A model generated the notes under the pieces. The model saw only the letters and a list, made by a program, of their open reading frames with translations. It had not been told where the DNA came from and ran no database searches. From Spirochaetota bacterium (GTDB lineage Bacteria > Spirochaetota > Spirochaetia > Treponematales > UBA12059), in the NCBI GenBank assembly GCA_018816345.1, contig JAHIWG010000015.1, positions 1 through 33,821 of the forward strand: DNA of 33,821 bases, read 5' to 3'. The translations under genes and the position numbers were made by a program. Below, piece after piece: positions 9,808 through 12,933 of the stretch (the stretch's first letter is position 1; each line of letters opens with the position of its first letter).

Positions 9808-11934
9808 ATGCCTATGCTATACGTACACGATCCCGCCCTCTTGGCCTCGCTATGCGTCCCTGCGATCACCGGGTCGGGTCGCGAGCCGTCAGAGCCCCTC
9901 TTCATAGCGGTGAACGGCGGGACCGACGATTTCGACGTAGCGCAGCCGGCAGGCCTAGGCACCGCGGTCCGGGTCGACGCGAGCTCCCTCGTCGTAAGGA
10001 GGGCGGACTCGTCGATAGACGCCGAGGCGACGAGGGCGCGCTGCTCCGGGTTCGCGGTACCGCGCCTGGCGGCCTTCCGCTGCTCCCTCGACGAGGCCGC
10101 GGTGCTCTCGTCATGCCTGGGGCTCGGGCTTACGGTAGCCTGCGAGCGAGGCGGCGCGCGCCAATGCGACAGGGCCATAGTCCCCGAGGCGCGCGAGGTG
10201 GCGAGCCTTTCCTTCGAGGAGGCCGCGGAGCTATCGCGCTTCGCCGACACGGGCGTAGACCCGTCGATCGTAGGCCCGCTGGCCCGCTACCGCGTACCGG
10301 CCCGCGTGCGCGCCTTGGCCGGCCCGGGCGCGTACGCGCGGCCGGACGCGACGGGAGGCACCCTTATCGATGAGAGCTCCGACTCCCGCAACGGCCCGGT
10401 AAAGGCTATCGCCAGGCAGTACGGAGTCGCGATGCTCTCGGTCTCGGGAGCCTGCCTTCCCGGCATGGCCGGCATGGCGGCCCGCGTCTTCGAGTCGGTC
10501 GCCCGCGCCGGCGCCAGCGTCCTACTGATAACCCAATCGTCGAGCGAGTACTCCATATGCTTCTGCGTCGGCTCGGGCGACGAGGCCGTCGCGCGCGCGG
10601 CCGTAGAGGGCGAATTCCGGGCCGAGCTCGAGGCGAAGGAGCTCGACCCGGTAGGCGTCGCCCGCGACCTGGCGATCCTGACGCTGATAGGCGACGGGAT
10701 GCGCCGCATCAAGGGCATCGCCGGCAAGTGCTTCACTCAGCTGGCCAGGGCCGACGTCAATATCGTCGCCATAGCCCAGGGCTCGTCGGAACGCTCCATC
10801 TCGGCTGTCGTGGCCGGGGAAGGGGTCGACCGAGGCGTCCGGATGATATACCAGGCCTTCTTCGACTCGGCCATGCCGATAGACCTCTTCGTCATCGGCT
10901 GCGGCAACGTCGGGTCCGCCCTACTCAGTCAGCTCGCGGCCCAGGCCGGCCGGCTGGAGGGCCACGACGTGGCCGCGCGCGTGGTGGCCGTCGCCAACTC
11001 CAGGCGGATGCTCGTGTCCAGGGAAGGCGTGGACCCCGCGGCGTGGAAGGGCTCGCTCGACGCGGACGGAGTCGACCTCGACCTGGGGGTCCTCCTGGCC
11101 ATGGGTTCGTCGCTCGCGAACCCCGTGCTCGTCGACTGCACCGCGGGCGACGCCATACCGGGCGCTTATCCCGATTTCATGCTCGCGGGGTTCCACGTGG
11201 TGACCCCTAATAAGCGCGGCAACGCGGGCCCGATGGACCGCTACCTGGCCCTGAAGGCCATGGCGCTCCGCCATCGCAGGAAGTATCTCTACGAGACGAC
11301 GGTCGGAGCCGGGCTGCCGGTCATCGAGAACCTGCAGAACCTCCTCCACGCGGGGGACTCGCTCGAGAGCTTCTCCGGCATACTCTCGGGCTCGCTATCC
11401 TTCCTGTTCGGCAGGCTCGAGGACGGCGTCACGTTCTCGGCGGCGGTGCGCGAGGCCATGGAGAAAGGCTTCACCGAGCCCGACCCGCGGGACGACCTGT
11501 CCGGCGCGGACGTCGCGCGCAAGGTCCTGATACTGGCGAGGGAGGCGGGGCTCTCGATGGAGCTCAAGGACGTCGCTCTCGAGGGCCTCGTGCCGGAGCC
11601 GTTCATGGCGCTAAGCAAGGACGGGTTCCTGAGCCGGCTGGCCGAGCTGGACCCGTCTTTCGAGGCCCTGCGCGCTAAGGCGGCGGCCGAGGGCAAGGCC
11701 TTGCGCTTCGTAGGATCGATAGAGGGCGGGCGCGGCCGCGTCGGGCTCCAGGCGGTCGGCCCCGACCATCCCCTGCGAGCCGTAAAGGGCGGCGAGAACG
11801 CGCTGGCGTTCACGACGCGCTACTATAAGCCGGTGCCGCTCCTCCTACGAGGGTACGGAGCCGGCGCGACCGTGACCGCGGCCGGCATATTCGCCGACAT
11901 ACTCCGCACCCTCAACTGGATTCGGGAGGCATAG
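9808..11934 (+). CDS. thrA: ThrA-like homoserine dehydrogenase with vestigial aspartokinase domain
   Basis: A 708-residue protein with the ThrA layout (E. coli ThrA is about 820). The C-terminal half (about 358-708) is an intact homoserine dehydrogenase: NAD(P)-binding FVIGCGNVGS, VVTPNKRGNAG with the catalytic-region Lys469, and ETTVGAGLPVIENLQ, GSLSFLF and EPDPRDDLSG. Residues 205-350 hold two ACT domains (ISAVV, SICFCV strands) that normally bind threonine. The N-terminal 200 residues match only the tail of aspartokinase (LSFEEAAELSRFADTGVDPS aligns with SYQEAMELSYFGAKVLHPR). The KFGGTS nucleotide/substrate motif is missing, so kinase activity is not expected. thrB starts one base after the stop. 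GGAG lies eight bases before the ATG. It should reduce aspartate semialdehyde to homoserine, with aspartokinase supplied elsewhere. Confidence 0.9.
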   Translation: MPMLYVHDPALLASLCVPAITGSGREPSEPLFIAVNGGTDDFDVAQPAGLGTAVRVDASSLVVRRADSSIDAEATRARCSGFAVPRLAAFRCSLDEAAVLSSCLGLGLTVACERGGARQCDRAIVPEAREVASLSFEEAAELSRFADTGVDPSIVGPLARYRVPARVRALAGPGAYARPDATGGTLIDESSDSRNGPVKAIARQYGVAMLSVSGACLPGMAGMAARVFESVARAGASVLLITQSSSEYSICFCVGSGDEAVARAAVEGEFRAELEAKELDPVGVARDLAILTLIGDGMRRIKGIAGKCFTQLARADVNIVAIAQGSSERSISAVVAGEGVDRGVRMIYQAFFDSAMPIDLFVIGCGNVGSALLSQLAAQAGRLEGHDVAARVVAVANSRRMLVSREGVDPAAWKGSLDADGVDLDLGVLLAMGSSLANPVLVDCTAGDAIPGAYPDFMLAGFHVVTPNKRGNAGPMDRYLALKAMALRHRRKYLYETTVGAGLPVIENLQNLLHAGDSLESFSGILSGSLSFLFGRLEDGVTFSAAVREAMEKGFTEPDPRDDLSGADVARKVLILAREAGLSMELKDVALEGLVPEPFMALSKDGFLSRLAELDPSFEALRAKAAAEGKALRFVGSIEGGRGRVGLQAVGPDHPLRAVKGGENALAFTTRYYKPVPLLLRGYGAGATVTAAGIFADILRTLNWIREA

Positions 11935-12933
11935 ATGATACGCGTATTCGCGCCGGCGACGTCGGCTAACTTGAACGTCGGATTCGACTCGCTCGGGGTA
12001 GCTCTGTCCCCATTAACGACCGCGGCGCCGCCCCAAGCTCTGTTCCAAGCTCTGTCCCCGTCAATAGCCCTGGAGACGGCGGGGCTCGGCGACGAGGTGC
12101 GGATCGAGGCGGCCGAGGCCGACTCCTTCCCGGTGACCGGCCCCTACGCGGCCGAGATCAGAGGGCCGAACATAGTAACCAGGGCCCTCCTGCGCGTGCG
12201 CGAGCTATCCGGCCGCGCCGGGAACGCATCGATAGAGCTGCATAAGGGCATGCCGGTAGGCTCGGGCCTCGGCTCGAGCGCGGCCAGCGTAGTCGCCGCG
12301 GTAATGGCCTGCGACGAGTTCTACGGGAATCCCCTCGGGCCCGACGGAAGGATAGCGCTGATGGGCGAGCTCGAGGCCGAACTGTCGGGGGGGCTCCACT
12401 GGGACAACATCCTCCCGTGCGCCCTCGGGGGCCTAAGGCTCGGCTCCTCTCGGCTACCCGTTCCGGCCGGCTGGGTCTGGCTCGTCGCCTACCCGGGTAT
12501 CCGCCTGGAGACGAAGGCGATGCGGTCAGTGCTTCCCGCCTCCGTCTCCCTCCGCGAGGCGGTCGAGCGGGCGGGCGGGCTGGGGCTCTTCGTGGACGCC
12601 CTCCACCGGGGAGACGGCCTCGCCGCGGCCGCCCTCATGACCGACCATATCGTCGAGCCGCGAAGGTCCCCCATGATCCCTGGCTTCGGCTCGCTCAAGG
12701 AGGCCCTGCGTGGCGCGGGAGCGCTAGCCTCCGGGATTTCGGGCTCCGGCCCGACCGTCTTCGCCGTGTTCGACGACGCGGACGCCGCGGAAGCAGGCCT
12801 CGCAGCCGCGGGCGCCTGGGCGGCGGGAGTCGCCGAAGCCGCGAACGGCTCGGCCGCCGGCGCGTTCGCCAGGCTGTGCCGCGTCGACGAGGCGGGGGCT
12901 CGCGTTGTCGAGCCCGCGAGTAAGGAGCGATAG
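11935..12933 (+). CDS. thrB: Homoserine kinase
   Basis: A 332-residue GHMP-family kinase that phosphorylates homoserine for threonine synthesis. The ATP-binding motif is PVGSGLGSSAAS (107-118). Other matches to E. coli ThrB are APATSANLNVGFDSLG, GELEAELSGGLHWDNILPCALGG, WLVAYPGI and SGISGSGPTVFAVFD. It is about 22 residues longer than E. coli ThrB. Most of the excess sits at residues 27-42 (LTTAAPPQALFQALSP), encoded by an in-frame 48-base insertion bounded by an 11-base direct repeat. That loop joins early strands away from the ATP motif, so activity is probably kept. It follows thrA directly and thrC begins one base after its stop. Confidence 0.93.
   Translation: MIRVFAPATSANLNVGFDSLGVALSPLTTAAPPQALFQALSPSIALETAGLGDEVRIEAAEADSFPVTGPYAAEIRGPNIVTRALLRVRELSGRAGNASIELHKGMPVGSGLGSSAASVVAAVMACDEFYGNPLGPDGRIALMGELEAELSGGLHWDNILPCALGGLRLGSSRLPVPAGWVWLVAYPGIRLETKAMRSVLPASVSLREAVERAGGLGLFVDALHRGDGLAAAALMTDHIVEPRRSPMIPGFGSLKEALRGAGALASGISGSGPTVFAVFDDADAAEAGLAAAGAWAAGVAEAANGSAAGAFARLCRVDEAGARVVEPASKER
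12001..12059. repeat. Short repeat element inserted in frame in thrB
   Basis: GCTCTGTCCCC occurs exactly at 12001-12011 and 12049-12059, 48 bases apart. Between them is a tandem near-repeat, CCAAGCTCTGTT (12033-12044) and CCAAGCTCTGTC (12045-12056). On the other strand this reads as GGGGACAGAG- and GGAACAGAG-type units separated by CTTG. That resembles short repeats I recall near IS200/REP-type (Y1) transposase genes in other bacteria; this link is from memory and unverified. It adds 16 codons to thrB without breaking the frame. I noticed no second copy in this window. Confidence 0.6.

Follow-up and report, generated by a model that had tools for sequence, protein, structure and literature searches.

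A probable relic of a RAYT-associated short repeat in the homoserine kinase loop of a spirochete

How a homoserine kinase came to carry a short block of repeated DNA in its coding sequence, and whether that block descends from a mobile element, is the question raised by thrB in the window, i.e., the whole 33,821-nucleotide stretch of a Spirochaetota genome analyzed here. A sequence-only reading had proposed that a repeat of the type tied to Y1/REP transposases was inserted into this gene in frame. We found that observation partly confirmed and its interpretation partly supported. The features concerned are the following.

9808-11934: hom; thrB starts directly after it, and thrC lies on the other side of thrB
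11935-12933, plus strand: thrB, homoserine kinase (GHMP kinase), 332 aa, intact (ORF, Pfam, PDB match, Foldseek)
12000-12011, minus strand: motif copy 1, GGGGACAGAGCT on that strand, sitting on conserved A-L-S-P codons
12012-12075, plus strand: extra DNA of ~60 bp compared with empty-site relatives, boundaries approximate (alignments; pLDDT < 50 for encoded residues 28-48)
12033-12056, minus strand: tandem 12-bp unit of the GRACAGAGCTTGG type, two copies (repeat search, family D10)
12048-12059, minus strand: motif copy 2, whose 15-mer GGGGACAGAGCTTGG matches a sister-species site

The thrB product has both the GHMP kinase domains (Pfam GHMP_kinases_N/C) and the fold of Homoserine kinase ThrB, with the homoserine kinase 4rpf as its top PDB match (E=2.7e-57) and as a Foldseek match of its predicted structure (E=5e-27), the homoserine kinase 4p52 also being matched outside the loop. 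As had been claimed, the reading frame is unbroken over all 332 aa despite the repeat region. Comparison with thrB of relatives, which the earlier reading had recommended, did reveal an empty site: in the aligned proteins of G005, G001, G022 and the MAG locus L053, all apparently of the same genus or family (L053 may be the same as G022), a short turn (for instance GVALKPLDGTLGDEV) stands in place of the GVALSPLTTAAPPQALFQALSPSIALETAGLGDEV of the window thrB. At the level of sequence, these alignments show that relatives without the motif have a loop shorter by ~20 aa (~60 bp), rather than by the 16 residues and 48 bases first put forward; deleting 48 bp from thrB would still leave 4 extra residues. 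In an AlphaFold model (21 sequences; mean pLDDT 84), residues 28-48 have pLDDT < 50 and lie between strands 20-23 and 52-59. Because these residues are disordered and the rest of the model matches 4rpf and 4p52, the insertion is predicted to lengthen a surface turn of an otherwise normal GHMP-fold enzyme. The thrB match in G022 (L106) and in L053 reads through one in-frame TGA. An artefact of assembly or binning, for which the fragmentation of the source genome (175 contigs) might be invoked, is hardly credible here, as the frame is intact, syntenic hom and thrC flank the gene on the same contig, and the stretch lies away from the contig ends and does not belong to a high-copy repeat.

Within thrB, an exact 12-bp direct repeat, AGCTCTGTCCCC, occupies 12000-12011 and 12048-12059 (11-bp core GCTCTGTCCCC at 12001-12011 and 12049-12059); extension brings it to 17 bp at 88%. 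The exact 11-base repeat said to bound the insert is therefore present, and is in fact 12 bp, but its bounding role did not hold up: since copy 1 sits on conserved A-L-x-P codons, the insert is not cleanly enclosed by two foreign copies. The tandem 12-base unit was borne out, its copies at 12033-12056 reading CCAAGCTCTGTT and CCAAGCTCTGTC. The repeat alone is weak evidence, because an exact repeat of at least 12 bp within 60 bp also occurred in 13/300 synonymous recodings of thrB and in 11/130 coding 1-kb pieces of the same genome. Such figures lend weight to a rival explanation, replication slippage, in which a loop of variable length underwent a local tandem duplication, GCTCTGTCCCC was already present by chance in the native A-L-x-P codons, and any likeness to the repeats of RAYT (REP-associated tyrosine transposase) genes is accidental. 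It is also favored by the position of copy 1 on conserved codons, by the lack of a copy family in the own genome, and by the same loop of G002 ThrB, which has an independent 15-bp tandem duplication (EGSPQ). We asked whether the latter might be a second mobile repeat and decided against this, since the genus has no copies of it beyond these two; this unrelated repeat indicates that the loop also lengthens by plain local duplication. Against slippage, rare codons run throughout the thrB stretch, copy 1 included: residues 22-44 score lowest in codon usage of all 312 windows along the gene, with atypical GCT (x3), CCA, TTA and TCA codons, and the codons of copy 1 are atypical as well (GCT 8%, CCA 6%, TTA 2%).

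The second line of evidence against slippage is what the motif matches elsewhere in the genus. Pfam Y1_Tnp is present in five sister species, and the best NCBIfam match of their RAYT genes is REP_Tyr_transpos. Within about 100 bp upstream, the RAYT genes of G001, G002, G005 and G007 carry the motif GGGGACAGAGCTTG or the hairpin GGGACAGAGCTT...AAGCTCTGTCCC (folding z=-5.3 for the hairpin at L048), with one G005 gene having the variant GGGGACAGACCCC instead; all RAYT genes found with the motif belong to sister species (L045, L046, L048 and L049, with the variant at L044). The 15-mer GGGGACAGAGCTTGG of thrB copy 2 is identical to a site near one of these genes (L045:900), and its 14-mer to RAYT-flanking sites at L045:1385 and L048:1381. 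These identities show that the thrB motif GGGGACAGAGCTTG has the very sequence found flanking RAYT genes, or forming hairpins at them, in sister species. With ~2 background copies per Mb, we estimate the chance of such a motif falling in a 60-bp target at ~1 in ten thousand. The 14-15 bp match, this estimate and the rare codons together make slippage, in our judgment, rather unlikely, albeit a serious contender.

The own genome offers less. It contains 9 exact GGGGACAGAGC sites, 2 of them within thrB; the 7 elsewhere, for which codon usage would give an expectation of ~2.6 in coding DNA, have contexts unlike repeat units and do not amount to a dispersed family. No other exact GGGGACAGAGCTT was found in this genome, and its third AGCTCTGTCCCC, which encodes ELCPR of an iron-sulfur motif, was put down to chance. 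The exact tandem pattern GGRACAGAGCTTGGRACAGAGCTTGG gave 0 matches in 84,980 species genomes, a collection from which the own genome is possibly absent, so no other species among those genomes shows this block. In contrast to the few own-genome sites, GGGGACAGAGC has 97 copies in G004, 39 in G005, 21 in G001 and 20 in G007, and the reversed control pattern has 0 in those four genomes; that the unit lacks other copies is thus nearly true of the own genome and clearly untrue of the genus. A similar split was seen for the Y1 transposase that the earlier reading had wished to see sought. A PF01797 search of the own genome gave no match, and a sister RAYT as query retrieved a single divergent homologue (G000:C92:16552-17007, 30% identity), with DDGIQL in place of the NHVHL of intact RAYTs and both HUH histidines lost; no GGGGACAGAG occurs in the 12 kb around it. 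Judged by its sequence, this homologue, the only candidate found for a cognate transposase in the own genome, is probably inactive as one. It adjoins a parA-like gene, is open over 187 codons, and has possibly been kept for another role.

In sister species, whose genomes are fragmented, the motif sites cluster around RAYT genes with p values of 1e-10 to 1e-21, which assume independent sites and would be inflated if single events had produced multiple copies: 1) in G007, 13/17 GGGGACAGAGCT lie on one 46.7-kb contig with RAYT (p=2e-21); 2) in G005, 8/34 sites lie on 18.7 kb around RAYT; 3) in G001, 9/21 on 21 kb; and 4) in G002, 5/10 within 15 kb. Most sites fall in protein-coding genes, among them those for YidC, ManC, Tex and an RnfB-like protein. 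On the G007 contig (G007:C276; L233-L235), 24 GGGGACAGAG sites surround the RAYT gene, nearly all in long ORFs and on both strands, and like crowding was seen on G001:C103, G002:C14 and G005:C125. We find this crowding in genes near RAYT more striking than the thrB case itself.

G004 has in-frame arrays or pairs of the motif that encode SSVP- or ALSP-type peptides, at the following places.

L086:3354-3568 (G004): TonB
L088:3233-3411 (G004): ABC transporter
L094:8839-8870 (G004): RlmJ

Array periods are 18, 21 or 27 bp. The peptides encoded in the ABC-transporter linker and in a proline-rich TonB linker are SSVPSA-type repeats; in RlmJ, two ALSP units occupy a length-variable loop, which exceeds that of the PDB relative 4blu by several residues. 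Beyond these, G004 has ~40 single copies within native coding DNA, in every reading frame and on either strand, vs. ~6 expected from codon usage (a Markov expectation for the G004 sample is unreliable, as many of its contigs read as N). Because such single sites are often on native codons, the motif sites are not all insertions. This excess, and the conservation of some intragenic sites between species, might suggest that selection has built up a chi-like or uptake-like DNA signal in the genes of the genus, with two copies of the signal simply being in thrB. We regard this as very unlikely: the copies of the other species are not scattered but gather around RAYT, the number in the own genome is close to chance, and the 20-aa insertion would be left unexplained. 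Known uptake sequences, moreover, have counts far above those of this motif. At two loci, L091 (G004:C471) and L229 (G006:C62), hom adjoins thrC with no thrB between them, and in G004 two GGGGACAGAGC units lie between the two genes; the idea that repeat insertion caused the loss of thrB in G004 was dropped, as thrB is likewise missing between hom and thrC in G006.

Compared with known systems, the thrB stretch fits one class in part. GGGGWSAS is the consensus reported for RAYT/TIRYT flanks (PMC3733652), and GGGGACAG, which occurs twice in thrB, fits it; like those repeats, the motif in sister species forms inverted repeats at the flanks of Y1 transposase genes and is scattered as dimers and clusters. 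The thrB units differ in being direct rather than inverted, and in a host without an intact transposase or other copies. DNA folding of the insert (z = +0.7, both strands) found no palindrome or hairpin of the REP kind. The claimed likeness to Y1/REP transposase repeats accordingly stands as to the motif at RAYT genes of sister species; it is not supported as to a copy family in the own genome and a palindromic insert. Intragenic GTAG/CGTC REPs occur in genes of known enzymes, and the 20-30 aa that they contribute are proposed to lie in loops or linkers (PMC3733652). The thrB case, also a known enzyme gene with a short repeat, lacks a palindrome bearing a GTAG or CGTC end; a GTAG just ahead of copy 1 (gggGTAGctctg, about 11998-12001) has no palindrome joined to it. 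As in Rickettsia palindromic elements (PMC10969869), there is an in-frame peptide insertion in a housekeeping protein; however, those are ~150-bp palindromes in multiple copies in the host genome, vs. an insert of ~60 bp at a single locus here. With both published classes as precedents, the in-frame insertion of such a repeat, which had been called uncommon, is not without parallel.

Taking these data together, we favor the view that the thrB loop probably holds a relic of a RAYT-associated, GGGGWSAS-type short repeat. Speaking for it are the RAYT-linked enrichment of the motif, the empty sites, the atypical codons, the disordered loop and the ALSP/SSVP units in G004; speaking against it are own-genome copies near chance, no intact RAYT, no hairpin, copy 1 on conserved codons and the local duplication in G002. 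As the own genome has few copies and a HUH-less RAYT homologue, and the thrB copies are direct without a hairpin, we restrain our reading to the stretch probably being either the remnant of an insertion or the product of tandem growth that began from a RAYT-type motif. We surmise that a RAYT-mobilized unit or half unit may have landed in the part of thrB that encodes the loop joining strands 1 and 2, at a site containing CCCC/GGGG, and would then have been copied in tandem with 12- and 36-bp spacing, 48 bp in total. Its survival would be owed to the absence of a stop codon in the frame used, to a net length that is a multiple of three, and to a loop tolerant of length change. An active RAYT may since have been lost from the lineage, leaving the divergent homologue without HUH histidines, or may never have been resident. 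The extra peptide (around LTTAAPPQALFQALSPSIALETAG) most likely acts as a neutral spacer.

For the genus as a whole, we tentatively postulate, as possible rather than probable, that the RAYT-cognate motif spreads mainly within tens of kb of the transposase and lodges in protein genes, with some species expanding in-frame arrays of it into linkers (TonB, ABC transporter) and loops (RlmJ, ThrB). If true, a REP-type transposase would be a source of new peptide segments in core proteins. The genus is suited to the study of this insertion process, since sister species retain the intact transposase, the hairpins and the in-frame arrays, and the thrB case adds a core-metabolism enzyme of an uncultured spirochete to the short list of proteins with RAYT-type repeat DNA.
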